Shown here: positions 1,311 through 38,357 of the stretch, piece after piece
Position numbering within the stretch: the first letter of the stretch is position 1
Layout of the letters: each line of letters opens with the position of its first letter
Source: Nodosilinea sp. E11
GTDB lineage: Bacteria > Cyanobacteriota > Cyanobacteriia > Phormidesmidales > Phormidesmidaceae
Length of the DNA stretch: 64,000 nucleotides
Assembly (NCBI RefSeq): GCF_032813545.1
Contig: NZ_CP136520.1
Span: 800,001-864,000 of the forward strand
Direction of reading: 5' to 3'
Notes under the pieces: model-generated
What the model was told of the DNA's origin: nothing
The model's database searches: none
Seen by the model: the letters and a program-made list of their open reading frames with translations, nothing else
Made by a program: the position numbers and the translations under genes

Positions 1311-1782
1311 TCAGTAGCACTCTCCGTAGCACTCTGTTTCAATCACTACAGACGATCTCAGATTAAAATAGGCCAAATAGTTTAAAGAGGCACTTTAAGG
1401 ATCCTATTTTTGGGAATAAAAATGAAATTTATGCTGAATTTCCCCTTAGATCCTCTAAAATAGGCCCTTTTTCTCCTTTTTAAGCAGGATAAAGGAGATC
1501 GGCAGGTGACTAAAAGCAACCGTCAATCGCTTTCCCAATCTCCCTAAAGGGTACCTCTGACCAATCTTAGAACTCCATAACATTATCAGCACATTTGCGA
1601 GGGCGAAACAACGGCAAAATTTATGCTGAAAGAAAGAGATCTCGGCAATTAATCGCCATAGACCAGCCTAAGTCTGCGGGGGGGATTTCCAAACTGAAAG
1701 GATCTCGGTGGGGATGCCGCTACAAAAACACAGGCCAGAGCCCAGGTGCTAAATCGAAGCCATAGAGATCACGACTCTTGCC
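1311..1782. other. Intergenic spacer, no gene seen
   Basis: About 470 bases between the start of the GAF-EAL gene and the end of ligA, more AT-rich than its surroundings. A 14-base direct repeat, AAATTTATGCTGAA, occurs near 1424 and 1617. I found no convincing coding frame or RNA. It presumably carries the GAF-EAL promoter. Confidence 0.5.
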
Positions 1783-24467: not shown

Positions 24468-27400
24468 TCAGCTATCCATCGCCTGCTGGATCAGGTCGTG
24501 GATGGTGTCGAAGGCAAAACTATCGAGATGCCGGTGGATCAGATCAGCTAGGGCATTTAGGCTAGGAGGAAATTGGTTCGCTAACTGGGCAAGTTGTTCG
24601 CTGTCGAGTTTAAGAGTGGCGTCGTAAAGCTGGGCGATCGCCGAACTAGGCAAGGCTCGTAGGGCGGCGATCGCAGCGGTAGTAGACATGGGCTCAGCGG
24701 CGATCGCCACTGGCGCTGAGTCGTAGGTGTACTGCACACCCAAATGCTCGGCTATCTTAACCAACACATGGTTTAGCTGAAAGGGTTTGCGCACAAAATC
24801 ATCGCAGCCTACGCTCAGGGCCTGAGCCCGGTCTTCTTCAAAGGCATTGGCGGTGAGGGCAATAATTTTGGGGGCAGGTAGATTAGCGGCTTGGGTTTGA
24901 GTGCGAATGTGCCGAGCCACCTGATCACCGCTGAGTATAGGCATGCGCATGTCGAGCCAGATTAGCTGAGGTTGACAATCTAACCACAGGGCGAGCGCTT
25001 CCTGCCCATCGCGGGCTTCCCAAACCTCAAAGCCAACGGAGCGCAGCAGTTGGGTGAGCAGATGGCGGTGGGTGCGATCGTCGTCTGCCACCAAAATGCG
25101 GTAGGGGGGTTGGCCTGGAGCCAGTTGGGTAATGGGGGGGAGTGCCGGGCTGAGCTCAGCGTCATCGACTCTGTCGACCACCTGCATAGGTAGGGTAAAG
25201 GCAAAGGTAGACCCCTGGCCCAGCTGGCTCTCTACGGTGAGGGTACCCCCCAACAGCTGCACAAACTGACGACTGATCGATAGCCCGAGACCGGTGCCCT
25301 CGTGAACCCGAGTTCTCTGGGTAATTTGCACAAAGGGATCGAGTAGACAGTCGAGGTTTTCGGCGGCGATGCCAATGCCCGTATCGCTGACCGCAAAGGC
25401 GATCGCTAGGTTGGTACCAGGGGCTAGGCAATCGATCGGGACAGGCACAGGGGTGACTCGCAAACAGACCTGACCGCTGTCGGTAAACTTGATCGCGTTG
25501 CCCAGAAGGTTAATGAGCACCTGGCGTAATTTGGGTTGATCGCTGCTGAGGTAGCAGGGCAAAGCCGGATGGCGGTCGATAATGAGCTTTAGCCCTTTGG
25601 TGCTAGCTCGCAGATGAAACAGCTCTGCCAAGGTGTTTAGCAAGATATCTAGATCAAAGCAGAGCGGATTAAAACTTACCTGCCCAGCCTCAATTTTTGC
25701 CATCTCAAGAATGTCGTTAATGAGGTCAAGCAGGTGCTCACCGCTGCGGTTGATAATTTCTAACGATTGCCGATCGCTGGGACTAAGGGCATGGTCGCGG
25801 GCCATGAGCTGGGAGAACCCTAAAATGGCATTGAGCGGGGTGCGCAGTTCGTGACTCATGTTAGCTAAAAACGTGCTTTTTGCCTGGCTGGCCGACTGGG
25901 CAATCTCAGTGGCCTGTTGCAGGGCCTGGGTGCGCTCTTGCACCCGCTGCTCTAGCTCCTGGTTGAGGGTTTGGAGCGATGCTTCGACCTGTTTGCGATC
26001 GCTGATGTCTTCGTAACAACCGAGGACGCCAATAATATCGCCCTCGGCATTGCTAATCGGTACTTTGCTAGTGCGAATCCAGGTTTCTTCATCGTTAGCA
26101 TTGTTGGTGAGTTCTTCGTAGCCCAATTCTGGGATTTGCGTGGTCATCACCCTGACGTCGTCGCGGCGGTAGTCTTCGGCGTAGGCCGCCCAGGGCAGTT
26201 CTAAATCAGTTTTGCCAATAATCTGTTCGGGGGTCAGGTTAAAGTCGTTGGCAAAGGCGTAGTTGCAGCCCAAAAAGCGGGAGTAACGATCTTTCCAAAA
26301 GATACGTAGGGGAACGGTATCTAGCACCAGTTGCAGCATGGTGCGCGATTCTTGGAGAGCCTGCTCGGCCTGCTTGCGATCGCTGATATCGTTGACGACC
26401 CCCAGCAGATAGCGAGGCTGACCTAACCCATCTTGCACTAGAGAAACGGCCAAGCTGACCCAAACCATGGCCTGGTCGCTGCGCAGGTAGCGCTTCTCCA
26501 TCATGAAGGTTGAAATTTCACCGCTGAGCAAACGCTGCACGTTGGCATTGTCATGCGACATATCGTCGGGATGGGTCAGATCTAGATATGTTTTTGAAGC
26601 CAGCTCTGGAGCTGAGTAACCGACTAGATCACAAAATTTTTGGTTAGCCTGCACAATGCGGCCGTTTAGGTCGGCCTCAACGATGCCCATAGCGGCCTGC
26701 TCAAAGATGCCGCGAAAACGTTCTTCGCTCTGCCGCAAGGCGATCGCCGCCCGCTGACGCTCGTTGTCAAGCCGCGAGCGATCGCGCATATCGCGGCAAA
26801 TGGTGGCCAGGCACAGCGGCTCGTGGGAGTTGGAATCGCGAATGAGGAAAATTACCTGCTCGACCACAATGTCTTCGCCAGTTTGATGGTGCCGGAGAGT
26901 AGATTCGCCTCGCCAGCAGCCCTGGTTTAGCGCGGTAGGCAGTGCCTCCTCTACGAGGTGGGTGACAGCAGCTGGGTTGTGAAGATTGACGATGGGGGTA
27001 TTGATGATCGAAGCTGCCGATCGCCCGATTAGCCGCTGCCCCGCTTGGTTGAGGTAGAGGGTATCGCCGCTGAGGCTAGCGGTGCCAATCAGGTCAGTGC
27101 TGTTCTCCACAATGGCGGCAAGTTTTTGAAGTTCTTGAGTGCGCTGCTGCACCCGCTGTTCTAGCTCGTCGTTGAGTTGCTGGAGGGCTAGCTCAGCGGT
27201 TTTACGCGGCGTGATGTCGTAGGCAGCCCCTGCCATGCGCAACAGCTCACCGTCGGCACTGTAGATGCCCTGCCCGCTGTCGGCAATCCACCGCTGGGTG
27301 CCATCGGGCAGCAGCACCCGATATTCGTGCTGAAACGTCCGCCCTGCGCCGATCGCCTGATCAATCTCTTGCTGCACAGCGGCGCGATCGTCAGGGTGAA

Positions 27401-29210
27401 TGGTCTGGAACCAGCGGTCGTGGGTCAGCGGCTCCGCCCTGGGCTCTAGGCCTATGAGCTGATAGGCGATGTCATTCCACGTCAGCTGGTTGGCGCAGGC
27501 ATCCCAGTTCCAAAGGCCGATGCGGCCAAACTTTAGGGCAATCTGAAGCTGCTCCTGACTTTGCTGTAAGGCGGCCTCAATGCGCTTGCGATCGCTGATG
27601 TCGACCATCACGCCCATCATTTTGATCGGCTGACCGCTGTCGTTATAAATGCCCTGGCCTCGGGTTAGCACCCACCGTTCATCGCCGTTGGGCCACACCA
27701 CCCGATATTCCACATCGAGCAGACTGTGGGTATCTAGGGCTTGGGCAAAGGCCTGCTCGGCCTGGGCCAGATCGTCGGGGTGGACGGCCTGACACCAGGT
27801 GGCGTAGTTACTGGGGTGTATCCCAGGAGTCAGCCCCATCAGGTGGTAGTGGCTGTCGCTCCAGAGAGCCTGGCCCGAAGCCACCTCAAACTCCCAACTG
27901 CCGGTGTGGGTAAGCTCTAGGGCCAGCTGGCGGTGCTGTTCGCTAGCCCTGAGGGCGGCCTCAATGCGCTTGCGATCGCTAATGTCGCTGACCCGCACCA
28001 GCATCATTGCCGACCCTGTTACGGTGATCAGGTTGGTGGCTAAATTGCCCCAAAACAGGTTTCCTTTGAGGCTGACATACTCCACCTCAGCACTCCAAAA
28101 TCCATGCTCGGCAATGATTTGGCGAGCCTCGGTCAGTTCTGCCTCGGTAAAGGGCTGCCGTTGCAACTGGTTGCCTTGAATGCCAATCAGGGACGCTTTA
28201 GTCTCGGCTTGAAATAGCTCTACGGCGCGATCGTTGCAGTCAACAATCAAACGGGTGTGAGTATCGACTAAAAACAGTCCATCGCTCGATTGGTTAAACA
28301 CAGCTTCCAGCAGCTCGCGGTTGCGGCGCAGTTCTAGCTGGGTCTGTTGATGCTGGGTAATGTCGTGCATAAACCCGTACCACACCAGATCCCCATTCGC
28401 TAGCTGCTGGGGGACCGATGTCTTCACCTCCAGCCACTTCAGCTCACCGTCAGGGGTGGTAATTCGACACTTTCCTTGAAAGGTCTCCTCTGGATGCTGA
28501 GCAGAATGGGCAACATGGGCAATCCACATCGGCACATCCTCGGGATGAACCAGATCCCATAGAGCCTGGGCTGTCGTCAAAAGCGCCTCAGCCTTGAGGC
28601 CAAAGAGGGCTTCACAGCCAGAGCTGACATAGGTAAAGGCGTCGGTGCCGTCGGCATGGCGCACGTAGCGATGCACCACCCCCGGCAAGTTCTTGGTCAG
28701 TTGCTGAAAGAATAGTTGGTCCTCTGGGGGAGCAAGATCGGCGGTTTGGCGATCGCCCCGTTCTGCCGGCTGCTGTTGGGCCGCCATCAGTTGGGCCTGC
28801 ATCTGCGCCAGCTGCTGCTCGTAGTGGTAGCGCCGCAGGGCTTCGGTTACCGTTAGTTGTAGATCGGCCTCAGTCCAGGGTGACCTCAGACAGCGGTAGA
28901 GCTGGCCCGAGGGAATCAACGCCGCGATCGCTCCACCATCGGTGCCATCCGTTGACTCCAGCAGCAACACTGTCAGCGCTTGGGGAAACCAACGGTAGAG
29001 GGTCTGGATGCCAGCGGAGTCGATCAGCCCCTGGCGGGCAATCACCAGGGGCACAGAGGTGTGGGTAGTTCCCAGGGTTTCGATCTGAGCTGCCGCCTGG
29101 GCAGTGGTCAGAGCCAGGGCTAGGTCATAGCCGGGATTTTCCTCTGCTAGCTGAGCCCGTAGTAGCTGTGGCGTCAGCGGATGGTGATCAATGCAGAGAA
29201 TGGTAGCCAT
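24468..29210 (-). CDS. Multi-PAS hybrid histidine kinase
   Basis: A 1580-residue cytoplasmic sensor from ATG 29210 (MATILCIDHHP); a GTG 11 codons upstream is also open. Residues about 1-130 look like a receiver domain without acidic pocket or phospho-Asp. Seven PAS/PAC units follow (about 160-1085; PAS markers include GVVHRYV, GSWEFE, GLWNWD and MGIVEADLNG). Then come HisKA ([14 protein letters not shown], His near 1117), HATPase_c (NLLGNAIKF, DTGIGIA, GTGLGLSIS), a complete receiver (VADDD, phospho-Asp in IWLDMRMP near 1417, KPF) and the C-terminal module shared with neighbouring kinases. It should be an active hybrid kinase; the signals are unknown. Receiver fragments lie downstream on the same strand. 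Confidence 0.93.
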   Translation of the reverse strand: MATILCIDHHPLTPQLLRAQLAEENPGYDLALALTTAQAAAQIETLGTTHTSVPLVIARQGLIDSAGIQTLYRWFPQALTVLLLESTDGTDGGAIAALIPSGQLYRCLRSPWTEADLQLTVTEALRRYHYEQQLAQMQAQLMAAQQQPAERGDRQTADLAPPEDQLFFQQLTKNLPGVVHRYVRHADGTDAFTYVSSGCEALFGLKAEALLTTAQALWDLVHPEDVPMWIAHVAHSAQHPEETFQGKCRITTPDGELKWLEVKTSVPQQLANGDLVWYGFMHDITQHQQTQLELRRNRELLEAVFNQSSDGLFLVDTHTRLIVDCNDRAVELFQAETKASLIGIQGNQLQRQPFTEAELTEARQIIAEHGFWSAEVEYVSLKGNLFWGNLATNLITVTGSAMMLVRVSDISDRKRIEAALRASEQHRQLALELTHTGSWEFEVASGQALWSDSHYHLMGLTPGIHPSNYATWCQAVHPDDLAQAEQAFAQALDTHSLLDVEYRVVWPNGDERWVLTRGQGIYNDSGQPIKMMGVMVDISDRKRIEAALQQSQEQLQIALKFGRIGLWNWDACANQLTWNDIAYQLIGLEPRAEPLTHDRWFQTIHPDDRAAVQQEIDQAIGAGRTFQHEYRVLLPDGTQRWIADSGQGIYSADGELLRMAGAAYDITPRKTAELALQQLNDELEQRVQQRTQELQKLAAIVENSTDLIGTASLSGDTLYLNQAGQRLIGRSAASIINTPIVNLHNPAAVTHLVEEALPTALNQGCWRGESTLRHHQTGEDIVVEQVIFLIRDSNSHEPLCLATICRDMRDRSRLDNERQRAAIALRQSEERFRGIFEQAAMGIVEADLNGRIVQANQKFCDLVGYSAPELASKTYLDLTHPDDMSHDNANVQRLLSGEISTFMMEKRYLRSDQAMVWVSLAVSLVQDGLGQPRYLLGVVNDISDRKQAEQALQESRTMLQLVLDTVPLRIFWKDRYSRFLGCNYAFANDFNLTPEQIIGKTDLELPWAAYAEDYRRDDVRVMTTQIPELGYEELTNNANDEETWIRTSKVPISNAEGDIIGVLGCYEDISDRKQVEASLQTLNQELEQRVQERTQALQQATEIAQSASQAKSTFLANMSHELRTPLNAILGFSQLMARDHALSPSDRQSLEIINRSGEHLLDLINDILEMAKIEAGQVSFNPLCFDLDILLNTLAELFHLRASTKGLKLIIDRHPALPCYLSSDQPKLRQVLINLLGNAIKFTDSGQVCLRVTPVPVPIDCLAPGTNLAIAFAVSDTGIGIAAENLDCLLDPFVQITQRTRVHEGTGLGLSISRQFVQLLGGTLTVESQLGQGSTFAFTLPMQVVDRVDDAELSPALPPITQLAPGQPPYRILVADDDRTHRHLLTQLLRSVGFEVWEARDGQEALALWLDCQPQLIWLDMRMPILSGDQVARHIRTQTQAANLPAPKIIALTANAFEEDRAQALSVGCDDFVRKPFQLNHVLVKIAEHLGVQYTYDSAPVAIAAEPMSTTAAIAALRALPSSAIAQLYDATLKLDSEQLAQLANQFPPSLNALADLIHRHLDSFAFDTIHDLIQQAMDS

Positions 29211-29450
29211 GGGATGGAGACATCCAGGGGAGATTGAGAACACGAGTTACAGCCGCAGGCCCTGAGCCCTTGACTATCTGGTTGATGCAGTTCCAGTCAC
29301 GTCAACGATCAAGTTATAGCCCGAGCATACCCTGGTCAAGTCAGCGGCCACCGCTGATCAGGATAAAGCTTTAGATGCTGTGATCGGCCTTTAGCCAGCA
29401 CCTCACAGGAGCTAACCACCCCGCCAGCGGCGGGGCAAAACAGGCAATCT

Positions 29451-31820
29451 TTAGTTTTCCCGCCCTGAGCAGTCAAAGCTCTCCTGGGACACCGCCTGAA
29501 TGAGATCGAGGATTTGATCGAACTGAAAGTCGGTGGCCCAGTAGCGCAGCCAGTCGCCCAGGGCCGCCCGCTCCGCTGGAATGGTTCGGGTGAGAGCCAA
29601 AACGGTGCCGTCGTCGCCGATGGTGGCGGCCAGTTCGAGCTGATCGCGCCAGACTCTCGGCATGGCTACGAAATCATCACTCAGCGGAGGTGGGCACAGA
29701 GAGGCCGGGGTGGGGGGCACCTCGGCGGTAGCGTCGATCGCCGTTAGGGTCTGCACACTGCCCTGGGCAGCAATGGTAAATTCAAATCGGCTTCCCTGGC
29801 CGGGCTGACTCTGGCAGCGGAGGTCGCCCCCCAGTAGCCGCACATACTCTTGACAGATAAACAGGCCTAAACCACTGCCCCGCTGCGATCGCTGGCCCGG
29901 TGCCGACTGCTCAAAGGGGTTAAACAATCGCTCTAGATCAGCGTGGTCAATGCCAGATCCCGTATCGGTCACCACAAAGGTCAGATGGTACTGACTGACA
30001 GCACTGGGCAATTGGCCCAGAGAAGCGGTTGGATCGCCAGCGCCCACTTCAATGGGGTTAATGATCTGTAGGGTCACTTGCCCAGAGACAGTAAACTTAA
30101 ACGCGTTTTCTAGCAAATTTGCCAAAATTTGGTACAGCTTGGCTTCGTCGGTGCAAATTTGCCGGGGCGGTTGCCCTTCGAGAGTTACCCGAAACTCCAC
30201 GACCGGATGGATCTGGTGAGCCGAAAACTGCTCCTGGAGGTTTTCTAGCAGCAGCCCCAGATCAAGCCAAGCGGGGGTGACAGTTGCCCCTTCGTCAGTA
30301 TCGAGCTTAGAGGCCAACAGCAGGTTGTTGATCTGCGCCAACAGGTAGTCAGCGCTGCGGCGCATACTGGCTAGGGCCTCTTGGTGCCTAGCAGGAATGG
30401 TGGCGTCATGCTGCATGACCTGAATAAACCCCAAAATGATATTTAACGGGGTGCGCAGCTGGTGGCTCATGTTAGCCAAAAACAGGATTTTAGACTCGTT
30501 TGCCGCCTCGGCAGCCACTTTGGCTGTGGCCAGTTCAGTGGTGCGTTCAACCACTCGACGTTCCATTTCGGTAAACGCGGCGTCCATCTGGGCCACCATT
30601 TGGTTAAAGGCACCGGCCAGCATTCTTACCTCTCGAATGCCCTGCATCTCCACAGTTTGGGTGCGATCGCCCTTAGCGATCGCCCGACTGGCGATCGCCA
30701 TCTGCCCAATGGGGCGATTAATCCAGCGGACGGCGAGCAGGGCCAGCAGTAGCGTCACCGACAGTAATAGCAGAGCCAGCAGCAGGGCAGTGCGGATATA
30801 GGCATCCACCTGGGCCTGAAAGTCAGACTCAGGCACCACCACCACCACTAGCCAGTCGAGGCCGAGATCATCTTGCCAGGGTGTCAGGCTGACAAACTGA
30901 CGAGTTCGCCCTAGCCAAAAAGCAAAGGTCGTAGGGCCAGCAGTAGTCAACTGGTCACGGCGGATCAGCTGCTCAGCCGTAGCCTGAACCCGCGGATTGA
31001 AGCTGCGGATGGCGGGCCGTCGCTGGGAATGGCCATCGACCACTTCAAAGGGAGCCACCCCATCAGAGCTGGCCACCAGCATCCCACTGCGTTCCACAAT
31101 AAAAATTTCGGTCGAGGGGCTGACCTGAATGGCTTGCAAAAAGCGGTTGATTTGAGTCAACACCAGATCAGCCCCCATCACCCCGATCAACTCGCCTTGG
31201 GGGGTATAGAGAGGGTGGCTAGCCGAAATCGAGAGCACATCGGGCTGATCCTCCCAGGCATAAATCTGACTCCACACGGGTTGCTTGGCAAGGGCGGCAT
31301 CGGCGTACCAAGCCTCCTCCTGATTGGACTCGGGGGCAGCGATAGACTCTGCTTGAGTCCGGTTCCCCCGGGCATCAGTTTGATAAATAGTCATCTGTTC
31401 GAGATTGTCCCGCCGGGTTTCGTTAATCACCAGGGTGCCATCGGCAGAGCGCTCAACCCCAATAAACTCTCCCGCCTGGTTGCCATAGTTGAGATAGTCG
31501 ATGGGGTAAAGCTGCATCTGCTGCCAGAAAAACCGCCCCATCTGCTCAAAATTTTCTAGGTCTATCAACCCGGTCTCAACGGCGGCCACATGGGTTCGAT
31601 TGAGCCGAGTCGCGACTAGGAGCTGGTGGTCAACATAGGCCAAAACTCGTTCCGTAGTCTCTTCTCGCAGGTTAGCGGCCAGTTCGGCGACGGTGACCCG
31701 TCGATACTCCATCATCACCCAGCCGGTAAGGCCGACCACCGTCAGCATTTGCAACAGGTAGGGTACCTCTAGCACTGCAACGAGAGGCAACCGCTGAATT
31801 AGGCGGGTAGCTTTGGTCAA
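29451..31820 (-). CDS. Membrane sensor histidine kinase (Cache-HAMP-HisKA-HATPase)
   Basis: A 789-residue kinase with a TTG start. Membrane helix 1 (about 18-36) and helix 2 (about 345-367) enclose a periplasmic dCache-like domain (WSQIYAWEDQPDVLSISASHPLYTP, GVMGADLVLTQINRFL) that probably binds a small ligand. HAMP, HisKA and HATPase_c follow (NLLENAFKF, DTGSGI, GSGLGL). The phospho-His region reads MSHQLRTPLN: Gln replaces the usual Glu after His (residue about 452), which may slow autophosphorylation. There is no receiver domain, but the C-terminal 60 residues carry the module shared with the other kinases of the cluster (WRDQLELAA...FQFDQILDLI). The cognate regulator is not obvious: a broken receiver lies just upstream. 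Confidence 0.92.
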   Translation of the reverse strand: MTKATRLIQRLPLVAVLEVPYLLQMLTVVGLTGWVMMEYRRVTVAELAANLREETTERVLAYVDHQLLVATRLNRTHVAAVETGLIDLENFEQMGRFFWQQMQLYPIDYLNYGNQAGEFIGVERSADGTLVINETRRDNLEQMTIYQTDARGNRTQAESIAAPESNQEEAWYADAALAKQPVWSQIYAWEDQPDVLSISASHPLYTPQGELIGVMGADLVLTQINRFLQAIQVSPSTEIFIVERSGMLVASSDGVAPFEVVDGHSQRRPAIRSFNPRVQATAEQLIRRDQLTTAGPTTFAFWLGRTRQFVSLTPWQDDLGLDWLVVVVVPESDFQAQVDAYIRTALLLALLLLSVTLLLALLAVRWINRPIGQMAIASRAIAKGDRTQTVEMQGIREVRMLAGAFNQMVAQMDAAFTEMERRVVERTTELATAKVAAEAANESKILFLANMSHQLRTPLNIILGFIQVMQHDATIPARHQEALASMRRSADYLLAQINNLLLASKLDTDEGATVTPAWLDLGLLLENLQEQFSAHQIHPVVEFRVTLEGQPPRQICTDEAKLYQILANLLENAFKFTVSGQVTLQIINPIEVGAGDPTASLGQLPSAVSQYHLTFVVTDTGSGIDHADLERLFNPFEQSAPGQRSQRGSGLGLFICQEYVRLLGGDLRCQSQPGQGSRFEFTIAAQGSVQTLTAIDATAEVPPTPASLCPPPLSDDFVAMPRVWRDQLELAATIGDDGTVLALTRTIPAERAALGDWLRYWATDFQFDQILDLIQAVSQESFDCSGREN

Positions 31821-31890
31821 GAACTGGATGATGGCGGTCTCCGGGCTAGTTAGGAGCAGTTAACCCCCAGTTCAGCAGGGTGCATACTAG

Positions 31891-31945
31891 GCGGCCCTAC
31901 AGTTTTGCGTTTGGGACTTGGGGGTATGCAATTCGGATTTGGGAT
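31891..31945 (-). repeat. Partial dispersed repeat, copy F
   Basis: TATGCAATTCGGATTTGG and the preceding CCCTAC...GTTTGGGA align with the terminal half of copy A at 9361. The hairpin part is missing. Confidence 0.55.
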
Positions 31946-32058
31946 CAGGAATCCAGCTGTTGGAATATTCTGGCTAAAGACTTCAGATTCTCTAAGAGGT
32001 CCTTCACGATCAAGATAGTTTCAGGGGCTAAAGCTGGATCGCAAGAGGTCATAGCCAT
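31945..32058 (-). pseudogene. Second truncated receiver-domain remnant
   Basis: ATG to TGA, 37 residues. PETILIVKDLLENLKSLARIFQQLD is the first strand and helix of a receiver domain, with the second acidic-pocket residue changed (IVKD for IVDD). It lies between the 488-aa and 789-aa genes on the same strand. The stop falls within the repeat copy F, which may have been inserted into or grown up beside the dead gene. Confidence 0.65.
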
Positions 32059-32167
32059 AGCAGGATTAGATCTAATCAGGACGATTTCGAGCAAACGCCA
32101 GCGCCCCAAAGCAAGCACTTAGGGCCTCTAGACCAATGACTAGGCAGTGCTCATCAGGACCATCGAC

Positions 32168-33634
32168 TCAGTTAGCCTGGTCGAGCACAGTCTGTACTAA
32201 CGTCAAAATGGTTTCAAAATCAAACTCCTGAATCCTAGCCCGCAGGGCCTCAGCTAAAGGAGCCTGATCTGCAGGCAGGGCCTCCAATAAAGCCAGTAGG
32301 TTATCGGCATCGAGCTTGACTGTGGCCTCGTGTAACTGACGCTGCCACTGCATGGGCATAAACGCTAGACAGTTTGGAGGTAGTGCCGAGGCCGGAGCGA
32401 CGGAGTCGTTTTTTTGCCAAAGTTGCTCCGCCTGGCCGAGGTCGGCAGCATAGGTGTATTGGACAGCTAAATGGTCAGCTAGTTTCTCTAAAATCAGGTG
32501 AGGCCGAAGCGGCTTTGAGACTACATCGTTACAGCCAGCGGCGATCGCCCTAAAGCGCTCCACCTCTGTGCCGTCTGTCAGGGCAATGATTTTAGTCGGC
32601 ACAAATAAGTCTGCTGGGGTCTCGGGCTGTAGCTGTGTTTGCTCGATGGTGCGCAGGCGGCAGGTAGTTTCGTAGCCGTCCATCTCAGCCATAGCCAGGC
32701 TCATCCAGATCAAGTGGGGTTGCCAATCGGCCCACATGGGGATGGCCTCCTGACCGCTGGTCGCCACTTGTAGCTCAAACCCCAGAGGAGCCAACAGGGT
32801 CTGCAGCAGCACCCGGTTAGTCCAATTATCGTCTACGATCAACAGACGATAGGTGGGTTGGCCAGCAGCGAGGGCAACCGCGCGCCGATCTGAGGGTCGG
32901 GGGGCAACAGCGGCTTCTGTCTTGGCCATGCCGAGCATGCCATTGATTAGAGCTAGCAGATGCTCACCGCTGCTATGAATAATGTCCAGCCCTTCCCGCT
33001 GCTGGTCTGATAGAGTTGCATCTTGAGAGAGCATCTGGCTAAAGCCCAAAATCGCGTTGAGCGGATTGCGCAGACCATGCCCCAAATCGGTGATCAGGCG
33101 ACGGTTGATCTGGTTAGCAGCCTCGGCGGCCTCCTTGGCTTGGCGCAGTGCAGCAGTACGAGCGGCCACCTGGCGATCGACGGCTCGGGCTTGGGTCAGT
33201 AGCCGCTGCACACTATAGGTGAGCCGCGCCCCAGAGAAGCTGTCGTTCATTAAATAATCGTCGGCTCCTCGGTTTAACCAACTGGCAGCGGTGTTGGCTT
33301 GGGCTGGGTCAAGGATGACGACCACCCTGGCCGTCGGCCACTGAGCCGCTAGGGCTGGGAGACTCTCAATGCCGGCTTGGCTACCGAGTAAAATAATCGT
33401 CGGCTGCCCAGTAGAATCAAGGTCAAAGCTGTCGGGGCTTTCCCAAAAGATCAGACGATAGAAGCGTTTGTCGCCTAACCACTGCTGAAAGAGTGAACCA
33501 TTGACGGGGCCGCAGGCAATGCACAAAATGGTAGCTGGGTAGGTAGTTGCAGAGGGTTGCATAGCGTAAGTCGGTAGAAGGGGCGCGATGGCCGACATCC
33601 TGTGGGGTCTAGGGAAATCAGCCAACACCCCCAC
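32168..33634 (-). CDS. Kinase-dead hybrid: HisKA-REC scaffold without ATPase domain
   Basis: A 488-residue protein. The N-terminal receiver-like part (ATILCIACGP...) lacks the acidic pocket and is homologous to the start of the 1580-aa kinase. HisKA follows with the His kept but its neighbours changed (GHGLRNPLNAILG near residue 190). Directly after MAKTEA, where about 200 residues of HATPase_c should come, the sequence jumps in frame to a receiver (LLIVDDN). In that receiver the phospho-Asp is Ser (IWMSLAMAEMDGY for [13 protein letters not shown]), while the Asp-Asp pair and the Lys (SKPL) remain. The shared C-terminal module ends it (MQWQRQLHEA...FDFETILTLV). It cannot autophosphorylate alone; dimerisation with another kinase is a reasonable guess. 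Internal ATGs at 33598 and 33562 are alternative starts. Confidence 0.85.
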   Translation of the reverse strand: MGVLADFPRPHRMSAIAPLLPTYAMQPSATTYPATILCIACGPVNGSLFQQWLGDKRFYRLIFWESPDSFDLDSTGQPTIILLGSQAGIESLPALAAQWPTARVVVILDPAQANTAASWLNRGADDYLMNDSFSGARLTYSVQRLLTQARAVDRQVAARTAALRQAKEAAEAANQINRRLITDLGHGLRNPLNAILGFSQMLSQDATLSDQQREGLDIIHSSGEHLLALINGMLGMAKTEAAVAPRPSDRRAVALAAGQPTYRLLIVDDNWTNRVLLQTLLAPLGFELQVATSGQEAIPMWADWQPHLIWMSLAMAEMDGYETTCRLRTIEQTQLQPETPADLFVPTKIIALTDGTEVERFRAIAAGCNDVVSKPLRPHLILEKLADHLAVQYTYAADLGQAEQLWQKNDSVAPASALPPNCLAFMPMQWQRQLHEATVKLDADNLLALLEALPADQAPLAEALRARIQEFDFETILTLVQTVLDQAN

Positions 33635-33803
33635 CTATTGAGACAGTCGACTAGTGTTAAGACCATCTCTATAGTGGGAAATAACTGTGACAATCTTGTG
33701 AAACCAAGCGGCCATTGTCTTCCCTAGGCAGGGGACGCTAGTATTCGTCATTACCAGTGATACTGTATACAGCACGGTTGGTTGATGACCGCTTGCGAAC
33801 GCA

Positions 33804-34310
33804 ATGAAGGCCTTTATGGTGACACCCCTTGCCATCAACTTTCGAGCCGCCACTCCCCAAGAAGATGGGGTGATTGCCCAGCACTTTTACAACCTGTGGC
33901 GCGACCTGGGCATAGCCGACGCCGTGATTGTGCCCCAGTGGCCCACCCTGTGCACCGAGTTCATAGTCCACGCCCGCCAGCACCTGCATTACCAAGCCTT
34001 TGTAGCCGAGATGGAGGGGGCTATTATTGGCTCTGCCGGAGGGCAGCGCTTCGCTGGGCTGTACCCCTGGATTATCTCCCCTAGCGATCGCCAGTACGGC
34101 TACATCTGGGGTGTCTATGTGGAGCCTGACTATCGCCATCGGGGCATCGCCACCCAGCTAACCCAACTGACCGTGGAGCATTTGCAGAGCATCGGCTGCA
34201 CCAAAATAGTGCTAAACGCCGCCCCCAAGGCCCGCCCGCTCTACCAGCGCCTCGGCTTTAGCGACAGCAATTTGATGGAACTTGATCTGAGCGCAACCAA
34301 ACTCCCATGA
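33804..34310 (+). CDS. GNAT family N-acetyltransferase
   Basis: A 168-residue GNAT enzyme transferring an acetyl group from acetyl-CoA. The acetyl-CoA loop is visible as VEPDYRHRGIATQLTQ (residues about 112-127; RHRGIA is the Q/RxxGxG/A motif), with KIVLNAAPKARPLYQRLGF as the C-terminal motif. ATG 33816 is an alternative start. The stop overlaps the start of the transglutaminase-like gene by 4 bases (ATGA), so the two are translationally coupled. The substrate is unknown. Confidence 0.9.
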   Translation: MKAFMVTPLAINFRAATPQEDGVIAQHFYNLWRDLGIADAVIVPQWPTLCTEFIVHARQHLHYQAFVAEMEGAIIGSAGGQRFAGLYPWIISPSDRQYGYIWGVYVEPDYRHRGIATQLTQLTVEHLQSIGCTKIVLNAAPKARPLYQRLGFSDSNLMELDLSATKLP

Positions 34311-35264: not shown

Positions 35265-38200
35265 ATGCAAACATTGGGGCCAACAAAAAATCATATAAGG
35301 GACTCATCACGACCTAGTCAAACCGGACATCAGCGAGGACTATTGGGTTTAGTTACTCTGCTAGTCTTGGGCGTTTTGGGCAACTATTTTCGTTGGTCGT
35401 TGTTCTTTCATATTGACTTTTTATTTGGCACTATAGCGGTGTGGCTAGTGCTCAGCTTTTATGGGCTACGTTGGGGTGCGATCGCCGCTCTCGTAGCCGC
35501 TAGCTACACCTATTTCCTTTGGAATCATCCCTACGCCATTATTATTTTCACTGCTGAATTTTTATTTGTGGGCGGGCTTTATCGCCGTCGTCCTCAAAAT
35601 AATCTGGCACTGCTCGACGCTCTATATTGGGTGATTCTGGGAATCCCGTTGGTTTGGCTATTTTACAACCAAGTTCTGGGGCTAAACGCCAACCAAACCC
35701 AGATTATTATGCTCAAACAGTCGGTTAACGGCATTTTTAATGCTCTAGGGGCTAGCCTACTGTTAACGTATACCCCTGTCTACCGCTGGTTAAATCGGCC
35801 CCAGATCAACAGTGCACTGTCGTTACAGCACACCCTATTTAACTTACTGGTTGCCTTTGTCTTTTTTCCCTCGCTAATTTTGATGGCGTTTGATAGTTAC
35901 CGCCAGGTAGCCGCTATTGTCGCCGAAGAGCACATTCATCTAGAACTGATTGCTCAACCTCTGGCCACTCAAATTGATAACTGGTATCAGCAACATACCC
36001 AAGCCACCGCTACCCTAGCGACTCTAGCCACTCAAACAGCGGTAGTTGCCCCTTTAACGGTTCAAGAGCAATCAACCCTGCAGGCCAAAACTAAAATTAT
36101 TCAATTACTGATGCCCGACTTTGAGCATCTAGTGATTACTAACAATGCTAGAGAGGTAGTAGCCGAGGCAACCCATGTCGGACATCCTTTCTCTTTTCCC
36201 ATGCTTGACCGTCTAGCGACCCAAGCCATCACACCTTCGCTAACGTTGGTCCCTTCTGAAGGGGGTCTTGTTCAGGAAAATATGGTGCTGCTGAGCCAGC
36301 CTGTACTTAACCAGGGGATCATTCAAGGGCGAGTCTGGGGTGAAATCAACTTGAGGGTGCTGCACACCCTCCTAACTCAAGCCATCCGCGATACCAACCT
36401 CCAAGTTAGTCTCATTGATCAGCACCAGCAAGTGCTGATCAGCACCGACCCCGATCGGCCCTGGGGCACAGCCTTCAACCTGCGACAAACCGGGGAAATC
36501 GTTCCCCTATCAGGTCAAGCCAATGCCTACCAATGGTTACCACCCCTGGGAAGCACCCTATACGCCCAGCGGTGGAACAACTCACGCTTTGTGCTAGAGG
36601 CACCCCTCACAGCCCTGTCAGAATGGACGCTAGTGCTCGAGTCATCGGCCCAGCCCTACGTTTATTTCATGCAGCAGAAGCACATTGAAGCTTTATTGCT
36701 TCTCATGCTTGTGGCGGGGCTAGCCTTAGCGAGTGCCACCTGGCTTAGCCAACGGTTTGTCAGTCCGCTGTTTGAGCTGGCCCAGGTCACCACCAACCTG
36801 CCTACCCAGGTGCTAGAACAGCAGGCTATTCGGTGGCCCAGCAGCCCGGTGGTCGAGCTGCGATCGCTAGTGCACAACTTCCAGCAGATGGCCACCACCC
36901 TGACCCAAAAATTTCAGGAGTTGCAGCAGGCCAAACAACGCGCCGAAGTGGCTAACCAAGCCAAAAGCGAGTTTCTAGCCAATATGAGCCACGAGTTGCG
37001 CACCCCCCTCAACGCCATTTTGGGCTTTGCCGATCTGCTGCATCGTCAACCAGCCCTAGTTGAGCACCAGCGAGAACTGGCCCTGATCAGATCTAGCGGT
37101 GAGCATCTGCTCGACCTGATTAACGACGTGCTCGACCTCGCCAAAATTGAGGCAGGACGCTTCAGCCTCTACGAAACTGCCTTCAACCTCCATGACCTGA
37201 TCGCCAACCTAGATAGCCTATTTCACCAGCGAGCCGACATCCAAAACCTGCGATTTTGGGTAGAACTCTCCGCCGATCTGCCGCAATTCATTCATGCCGA
37301 TGAGCGCAAACTGCGCCAGGTGCTGATGAACCTGCTCAACAACGCCATCAAATTTACCAAAACAGGGCAGGTCACCCTACGGGCCTCTCTAACCCCTGGC
37401 GCTACCGACGGTGACCAAAGCTGCTGGTTGCGCTTAGAGGTTAGCGATACTGGCCCCGGCATTGCCTCGGAGGAGATTGGACTGCTGTTTCAGGCCTTTT
37501 CTCAAACCGAGACAGGACGCGCTAGCCAGATGGGCACCGGGCTAGGGCTACGCATTAGCGACCAGTTTATCAAACTCATGGGCGGCAGCATCATTGTAGA
37601 AAGTCAACTGGGAGCCGGTTCACGCTTCATTGTTACGGTGCCGGTACAGCAGACCACCTCGGCCCAACTTACGCCCCAGGTTATACCCCGCTCAGCCATT
37701 GGCCTCGCCCCTAACCAACCGCAATACCGCCTGCTGGTCGTCGATGATGAGCTGAGCAATCGCCTCCTCCTCGTAAAAATTCTTACCGATCTAGGGTTTG
37801 CTGTACGAGAAGCCAGTGACGGACAGCAGGCGATCGCCATTTGGCAGAGCTGGCAACCTCAGCTGATTTGGATGGATATGCGCATGCCCGTCATGGATGG
37901 CTACGAAGCCACTCGCCACATTAAGGCGCAAATGCAGGGCCAAGCCACTGCTATTATTGCTCTCACCGCCAGCGTTTTTGATGAAGAAAAATCTTTAGTG
38001 CTCGCCGTTGGCTGCGATGATTTTGTTAGAAAGCCGTTCCAGACGGGAGCCATTGTCGACAAGCTAGCCCAACACCTCGGGGTGCAATTTATCTACGCCG
38101 ATTTAGAAACCCCGGCCCCAACGCCCAACTCCACCTTAGGAGTTCTGGAGTTATCGGTCGAGAGCCTATCTCACATGTCTAAGCCCTGGCGTGACCAATT

Positions 38201-38357
38201 GCATAAAGCTGCTACTCAAGCCGATCAAAAAGCCTTATTTCAGCTGCTCGAAGCCCTACCCAGCGAACCCGCGCAACTTTGTCAAATCCTCAACGCTTGG
38301 GTAACCAACTTCCAGTTTGATAGAATTATTACCCTTACTGACAGCGAAGATGATTAG
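35265..38357 (+). CDS. Membrane hybrid histidine kinase
   Basis: A 1030-residue kinase. Several membrane helices cover residues about 25-180 (MASE1-like arrangement) and one more lies near 195-215. A periplasmic region of about 250 residues follows, then a helix near 470-490, a HAMP-like linker, HisKA ([19 protein letters not shown], His near 575), HATPase_c ([25 protein letters not shown]) and a complete receiver (VVDDE, phospho-Asp in [17 protein letters not shown]). The C-terminal shared module is WRDQLHKAA...FQFDRIITL. All catalytic residues are present. The last 8 bases overlap the start of the REC-PAS-GGDEF-EAL gene, so the kinase probably passes its signal to c-di-GMP turnover. Confidence 0.94.

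Follow-up and report, generated by a model that had tools for sequence, protein, structure and literature searches.

A kinase-derived protein without ATPase domain in Nodosilinea sp. E11 retains a constrained pseudo-receiver and may act on neighbouring histidine kinases

We report on a gene located among histidine kinase genes in a 64,000-bp stretch of the Nodosilinea sp. E11 genome (contig NZ_CP136520.1, positions 800,001 to 864,000; referred to as the window, with coordinates counted from its first base), the product of which carries a HisKA domain that continues into a receiver with no HATPase_c domain in between. The genes and features are as follows; here and below residue numbers refer to the 464-aa protein unless marked 488.

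24468..29243, minus strand: multi-PAS hybrid kinase (1591 aa), the next same-strand gene (ORF list, Pfam)
29451..31820, minus strand: dCache-HAMP-HisKA-HATPase kinase without receiver, candidate partner, 347 bp downstream (Pfam, gene order)
32168..33562, minus strand: CDS of the kinase-derived protein, 464 aa, with ATG 33562, the same point as in relatives, as probable start
32171..32398, minus strand: C-terminal four-helix module, aa 389-464 (sequence comparison, model)
32462..32848, minus strand: receiver, a pseudo-receiver, aa 239-367 (Pfam E 6e-18, model, key positions)
32699..32701, minus strand: Ser288 codon (AGC) replacing the phospho-Asp (sequence, key positions)
32783..32824, minus strand: alpha1 helix of the receiver with a nearly frozen face, aa 247-260 (element-wise identity)
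32849..32929, minus strand: junction without HATPase_c, from the HisKA end (MAKTEA) to the linker RRAVALAAGQP (sequence alignment)
32912..33106, minus strand: HisKA with no ATPase domain after it, aa 153-217 (Pfam E 6e-15, whole-genome scan)
33077..33079, minus strand: phospho-acceptor His162 of HisKA, HGLRNP (sequence, key positions)
33173..33535, minus strand: N-terminal degenerate receiver-like domain, aa 10-130 (weak Pfam, model)

The ORF list gives a 488-aa frame at 32168-33634, which is on the minus strand and is read from GTG 33634. This start, implied in the earlier note, is probably too far upstream; ATG 33562 is more likely the true start, giving a protein of 464 aa, because the other six copies of the gene (see below) begin with M-Q/Y-x at that point. 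A simple scan of 31700-33900 predicted no terminator-like site and, on the minus strand, no promoter-like site.

Pfam identifies HisKA (E 6.3e-15, aa 177-241 of 488) and Response_reg (E 5.6e-18, aa 265-385 of 488) in the window protein and no HATPase_c at E up to 1, in agreement with what had been noted from the letters, i.e. that HisKA has kept its His (LGHGLRNP) and that HATPase_c is absent. The residue after this His is Gly in the window copy, which corrects the earlier note, and the linker RRAVALAAGQP is the stretch that precedes the receiver in full-length kinases. A full histidine kinase could be ruled out, since HATPase_c was detected neither in the protein nor within 700 bp downstream of HisKA. 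The substitution of Ser for the receiver Asp (IWMSLAMAEMDGY; codon 32699-32701) was confirmed: Ser288 occupies the end of beta3, where a true receiver has its phospho-Asp, and a domain recognised as Response_reg by Pfam in which at least one of the five active-site residues is gone (here Asp to Ser) is a pseudo-receiver. Upstream of HisKA there is a second receiver-like domain that had been missed; it gave weak Response_reg matches (E 0.07-0.14) in three of the five N-terminal pieces scanned and lacks the beta1 acid (Asp) pair, while the AlphaFold model shows a receiver-like beta/alpha order at the N-terminus. In this model (nine-row alignment, mean pLDDT 76.5, pTM 0.40) the receiver-like N-terminus is followed by a long helical stalk with HisKA, the receiver and a four-helix C-terminal module; given the pTM the placement of the domains is not reliable. 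The longest Foldseek matches were PleD-type receiver proteins at a TM of only 0.24, single receivers fitted the receiver domain well (TM by target 0.8-0.9), and among the NCBIfam matches listed there were only those below cut-off to generic kinases and regulators.

The whole genome has 94 HisKA matches above the Pfam cut-off and two below, and among the 94 the window gene is the sole HisKA-receiver protein without HATPase_c. Five of the 94 have no HATPase_c match within 700 bp downstream, viz. the window gene, two HisKA-EAL proteins and two with a weak ATPase-like remnant as judged by eye; counting the two sub-threshold matches the number is six of 96, the sixth being a sub-threshold receiver protein. 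The HisKA-EAL proteins (L084 437-1594, plus strand, and L085 143-1282, minus strand) consist of a short HisKA with an HELRTP motif fused to EAL, without HATPase_c; the assignment is based on Pfam for L084 and on the sequence together with its HisKA match for L085. Conversely, 14 of 104 HATPase_c matches lack a HisKA within 700 bp upstream. These 14 are all either located on a different contig or separated from the window gene by over 90 kb (about 93 kb for the closest one on this contig). We therefore rejected a linked ATPase-only complement, since no HisKA-less HATPase_c lies within 90 kb on the contig; an unlinked gene might still act as partner.

Searches among 26 Nodosilinea genomes revealed seven copies without HATPase_c in six genomes, i.e. 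the window's own (G000, with two copies), G002, G003, G007, G016 and G023. The absence of the domain was established by Pfam in six copies (for G003 only for the part after a frame break) and from the sequence in G016. When the order (63 genomes, which all belong to one family) was searched with aligned N-terminal domains, only these six genomes matched strongly, with E below 1e-50, and a class-wide draw of 388 genomes using the N-terminal alignment added none at this level. At a limit of E 1e-10 this draw yielded 16 genomes, of which six were those already known (below 1e-50); the ten further ones (1.6e-14 to 6.2e-11) were taken for ordinary receivers from E-values and open-frame lengths. Nineteen other genomes of the genus, some of which are incomplete, have no strong match. 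One copy, the second in the window's genome, is shorter: this paralogue (L012 15114-16004, minus strand; 296 aa) lacks both HisKA and HATPase_c, comprises only two receiver-like domains with Glu at the phospho-site, and overlaps the next gene, encoding an 1138-aa kinase, by 20 bp.

A seventh genome, G010, gave a single match in the order-wide search (E 5.5e-33), and here the frame of the homologue encodes HisKA, HATPase_c (E 3.8e-30) and a receiver that has its Asp; beyond a frame break the receiver continues to its end and the C-terminal module known from the window protein follows. It is flanked by a gene of the REC-GGDEF kind and one resembling the start of the 1138-aa kinase, which match the flanks of the 296-aa copy with 70% and 63% identity. 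Because a full homologue sits between matching neighbours in G010, the starting point was presumably a complete kinase at a locus of this kind, which then lost HATPase_c. The suggestion that the window gene arose by an internal deletion that was retained is thus supported by this homologue and by the six other copies without HATPase_c; the latter also led us to reject a one-off lesion in this strain.

Whether the gene is merely a kinase in slow decay that by chance is open in this strain needs to be considered. Two of the seven copies are frameshifted, in the receiver in G016 and at a run of nine C in HisKA in G003 (L018, about 1495-1510, plus strand), the G010 kinase is also frame-broken, and domains and active-site residues have been lost stepwise. 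Moreover, on the G016 branch omega is 0.72 and indistinguishable from 1 (2dlnL 0.2), and since this is near neutral the gene in the G016 lineage may be decaying. Against decay of the window copy, omega is 0.103 on its own branch and omega=1 is rejected (branch model, 2dlnL 71.5); the G003 branch gave 0.23 despite the frameshift (2dlnL 35.4) and the receiver of the 296-aa paralogue 0.13 (2dlnL 22.0), the N-terminal domain of the latter being looser (0.43, 5.1). All 21 pairwise codon comparisons reject omega=1 (omega 0.11-0.29, 2dlnL 56-189; dS is above 1 in 19 of the 21 pairs), and 54 of 131 receiver columns are invariant in the six HisKA-bearing copies. G003 and G016 entered these tests as two frame parts trimmed at the frame break, and the HisKA branch length of G003 ran to its bound in the branch models. 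Given the constraint on the G003 branch, its break is recent or an error, and it could stem from faulty sequencing, from slippage acting as a switch or from a fresh lesion.

Decay is largely refuted for the window copy on its branch, very recent loss of function aside; a plain pseudogene was rejected on the omega of 0.103, and as a general account of the gene decay is improbable. The purifying selection that the earlier note wanted checked is thus present, and retention of the window copy under selection is well supported by the codon comparisons. Of the two signs of a dying gene named in advance, near-neutral evolution and frameshifts in relatives, G016 has both and G003 has a frameshift, while the window copy is not decaying.

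The receiver has changed where phosphorylation takes place. The phospho-Asp is present in 31 of 31 receivers of related hybrid kinases and in two of the seven family copies: it is Ser in the window copy, Ala in G007, G016 and G023, Glu in the 296-aa copy and Asp in G002 and G003, as it is in the receiver of the G010 kinase. On the family tree, in which two of five inner branches are well supported and which is thus poorly resolved, these states correspond to three losses of Asp (Ser, Ala, Glu). None of the seven copies has Pro at D+4 and one has Ala at T+1, as opposed to 30 and 31, respectively, of these 31 control receivers, i.e. phosphorylation marks are gone even in the copies that keep Asp. 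The active-site Thr is kept in two copies and gone in five, and the window copy has retained the acid pair, Thr and Lys (D244, D245, T329 and K350). Loss of Asp is not confined to the family, since the neighbouring kinase of the 1138-aa type in G023 (L075 15817-19248, plus strand) has Ala at its own phospho-Asp position (LIWMAIRM). Together with the selection tests, these comparisons make it a supported conclusion that a hybrid kinase has lost HATPase_c and the phosphorylation residues of its receiver under purifying selection.

The constraint is unevenly distributed over the protein. Relative to the HisKA of the adjacent kinase of the 1138-aa type, dN of the family HisKA is 4.6, 6.2 and 12 times as high in the G007/G016/G023 pairs; against the dCache kinase HisKA, for which a single genome pair was available, the factor is 3.2. 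For the receiver the corresponding ratios to the neighbouring kinase receiver are 0.83, 1.54 and 1.57, so that two of the three pairs show a rate about 1.5 times that of the neighbour; one of the neighbours compared, that of G023, is the kinase with Ala at its own phospho-site. Invariant columns in the six HisKA-bearing copies number 18 of 65 in HisKA and 29 of 121 in the N-terminal domain, as compared to the receiver figure given above. On the window branch the receiver has an omega of 0.12 that rejects 1 (2dlnL 15.9), and HisKA one of 0.03 (2dlnL 6.9, 81 codons), so HisKA is not to be written off.

Within the receiver we compared the mean pairwise identity of each element among the seven copies with that of identity-matched pairs from 31 related hybrid-kinase receivers. 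For alpha1 the values are 0.89 vs 0.50 (sd 0.15), for alpha3 0.71 vs 0.57, for beta3, the phospho-site strand, 0.56 vs 0.95, and for beta5 0.46 vs 0.87; alpha4, 0.25 vs 0.42 (sd 0.26), lies within the control spread, and receivers within hybrid kinases can have a loose alpha4 anyway (in the portion of PMC9981736 available). None of 110 matched control pairs reaches the mean alpha1-minus-alpha4 contrast of the family, and 33 of 110 reach that of its lowest pair. The seven copies are related and their pairs not independent; leaving out one copy at a time gave 0.88-0.91 for alpha1 and 0.23-0.29 for alpha4. Receiver alpha1 engages the DHp (HisKA-type) domain and is remarkably variable among homologues (PMC9981736, in part).

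The earlier note had proposed a role for the protein as a HisKA dimerisation partner or scaffold of the neighbouring kinases. In favour of this, all six HisKA-bearing copies keep the His, and on the window branch HisKA is under constraint, but the receiver, not HisKA, is the most preserved part. A docking role based on the receiver is better supported by the comparisons than the HisKA-dimer role, because dN is strongly raised for HisKA and little or not at all for the receiver, and the paralogue has no HisKA. We consider that the window protein probably works by binding to other kinases and not by catalysis. Specifically, it might be a catalytically dead, kinase-derived adaptor that docks on the HisKA bundles of partner kinases in trans and modulates them, a reading we favour tentatively and place somewhat short of an even chance. 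The sequences support an ancestral kinase made up of HisKA, HATPase_c, a receiver and the C-terminal module, from which HATPase_c was lost, and a receiver that lost the Asp, the D+4 Pro and the small T+1 residue and yet stayed constrained; the protein would operate without phosphate chemistry. HisKA may serve as the stalk of a homo- or hetero-dimer and the pseudo-receiver may dock through the preserved alpha1 on the HisKA bundle of the partner in trans. That the bundle would be that of another protein is suggested by the fast change of the protein's own HisKA and by the 296-aa copy, which has none; as this paralogue keeps alpha1 without HisKA, the dock there is not in cis. The pseudo-receiver cap could hold back or re-route the signal of the partner, since the receiver dock would be occupied by a domain that cannot take the phosphoryl group. 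Points against the adaptor are the constraint on HisKA with its kept LxHxLRxP, which a pure dimer stalk would not need, the Asp that G002 and G003 still carry, the faster change of the family receiver in two genome pairs, and the dispensability of the gene, given the 19 genomes of the genus without a strong match and the two frameshifted copies.

The kept His might instead be used in a relay, in which the ATPase of a partner phosphorylates it in a mixed HisKA dimer and the phosphate passes on to another receiver (five of the seven copies have no Asp in their own). The 18 invariant HisKA columns include LxHxLRxP, the window branch shows constraint on HisKA, and the co-directional dCache kinase has HATPase_c and no receiver. 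However, HisKA is far less constrained than in the neighbouring kinases, H+1 is Gly in the window copy, H+4 varies (N, T, N, I or T in the five readable copies), and the paralogue has dispensed with HisKA although its receiver is constrained, and we regard the relay as a serious though rather unlikely rival.

The residue after His and that at H+4, which we take to be the positions of the phosphatase motif, also bear on a dedicated phosphatase, i.e. an ATPase-less HisKA bundle that dephosphorylates receivers: the window copy has Gly in place of the acidic residue, and G023 has Ile at H+4. Such a role has been suggested for archaeal HisKA-only proteins (in passages of PMC5847659). As HisKA moreover evolves fast and is missing from the paralogue, this is very improbable here.

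For the adaptor reading the likeliest partner would be the co-directional, receiver-less dCache kinase and, at other loci, the hybrid kinase of the 1138-aa type. The three neighbouring kinases scanned (1591, 789 and 1030 aa) all have HATPase_c. The order family gene, 1138-aa-type hybrid kinase and dCache kinase on one strand recurs at three loci (the strain's own 770-kb locus, G007 and G016) with gaps of -20 to 322 bp, the largest being counted from the frame break in G016. In G023 the 1138-aa-type kinase comes after the family gene (gap 50 bp) and then the dCache gene, which extends beyond the end of the sequence retrieved; G003 has a 1742-aa kinase at this place, and the G002 family gene is on the strand opposite to its kinase neighbours. 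GGDEF-type (by sequence motif) or EAL genes (by Pfam in L084) adjoin several family loci, which is consistent with a ligand-gated protein in which both pseudo-receivers bind a second messenger such as c-di-GMP and signal to the kinases of the cluster. The structure of ShkA, the central pseudo-receiver of which binds c-di-GMP (PMC7010744, in part), is among the Foldseek matches (6qrj, E 1.5e-10, TM 0.24). This match reflects shared receiver folds, however, and GGDEF and EAL genes are common throughout the cluster, which leaves ligand gating quite improbable.

HisKA proteins without HATPase_c and pseudo-receivers have each already been described. The former, referred to as pseudo-histidine kinases ("HisKA, no HATPase", "possible incomplete histidine kinase" in P2CS, or archaeal non-enzymatic HK-like proteins), resemble the window protein in having HisKA with its His and no HATPase_c, and passages in PMC5847659, PMC2716373 and PMC12632262 consider them able to join signalling without kinase activity of their own. 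The present case differs in that a receiver, itself without phospho-Asp in five of seven copies, follows HisKA, that the architecture recurs within a small family for which a complete kinase is present at a matching locus, and that one copy lacks HisKA as well. Bacterial pseudo-receivers share the loss of Asp, of Pro at D+4 and of the small residue at T+1, and similar shifts at the same positions are given for 9,153 pseudo-receivers in the part of a 2025 review available (PMC12632262); here the pseudo-receiver is on a catalytically dead kinase scaffold and has a nearly frozen alpha1 face. Among titles and the first parts of abstracts we found no published description of a HisKA-receiver protein without HATPase_c in Nodosilinea, which does not prove its absence from print.

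Spo0B is a HisKA-like bundle without ATP use of its own. So is ChpT (PMC9981736, in part), which keeps a degenerate ATPase-like domain and passes phosphate on, whereas the window HisKA runs straight into the receiver linker and no degenerate ATPase-like domain as in Spo0B or ChpT follows the bundle. In Synechocystis, Hik36-Hik43 illustrates how cyanobacterial kinase functions can be divided between interacting proteins, in that case a CheA whose HPt and DIM-CA-REC parts are separate (PMC7656254, in part); the window protein does not resemble such a split kinase, as no ATPase-only gene is linked to it. A precedent for an inhibitor that is receiver-like and independent of phosphorylation is Osp of Rhodobacter sphaeroides, which is active in its non-phosphorylated form and inhibits CckA by binding to the transmitter, according to the section of PMC9430884 consulted. 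Osp is a single receiver domain that keeps Asp and lacks the acid pair and Lys; the reverse holds for the window protein, in which the acid pair and Lys are present and Asp is gone, and which in addition has HisKA and another receiver-like domain. A likeness to Osp in binding or inhibition is proposed by analogy.

The forms found might represent a reductive series from a hybrid kinase to a phosphorylation-free, trans-acting cap, in which the ATPase was lost, Asp was lost three times, the docking helix froze and HisKA was lost in the paralogue; this is possible but doubtful, and the same applies to its proposed end point, a bare double pseudo-receiver beside the kinase that it regulates. The ancestor-like form and several stages of loss coexist in related cyanobacteria, with candidate partner kinases next door, and because these forms exist side by side and the partners adjoin, the idea that a dead kinase is kept for docking lends itself to a direct test. 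The case is also a warning that such proteins should not be annotated as histidine kinases.

Finally, among the seven copies the C-terminal module is present only in the window copy; it is also present in the G010 kinase and closes the neighbouring kinases. No Pfam match over cut-off was obtained for that of the window protein. The best Foldseek folds were HPt domains, although weak (E 1.6 and above), and a profile comparison with HPt domains of the same genome (seven of 12 HPt loci included) gave a probability of 0.2%. The conserved phospho-acceptor His of an HPt four-helix bundle is lacking: no His is common to all 15 aligned modules, the commonest position being His in seven. Another ATPase-less kinase, a 620-aa protein of Nodosilinea nodulosa (L011 8331-10193, minus strand), has no HATPase_c by Pfam and proceeds from dCache-HAMP-HisKA directly into this module. 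With a length of about 65 aa and as yet unnamed, the module ends several kinases of the genus Nodosilinea, and in the window it is found at 32171-32398, 29454-29678 and 24471-24680 on the minus strand and at 38145-38354 on the plus strand.
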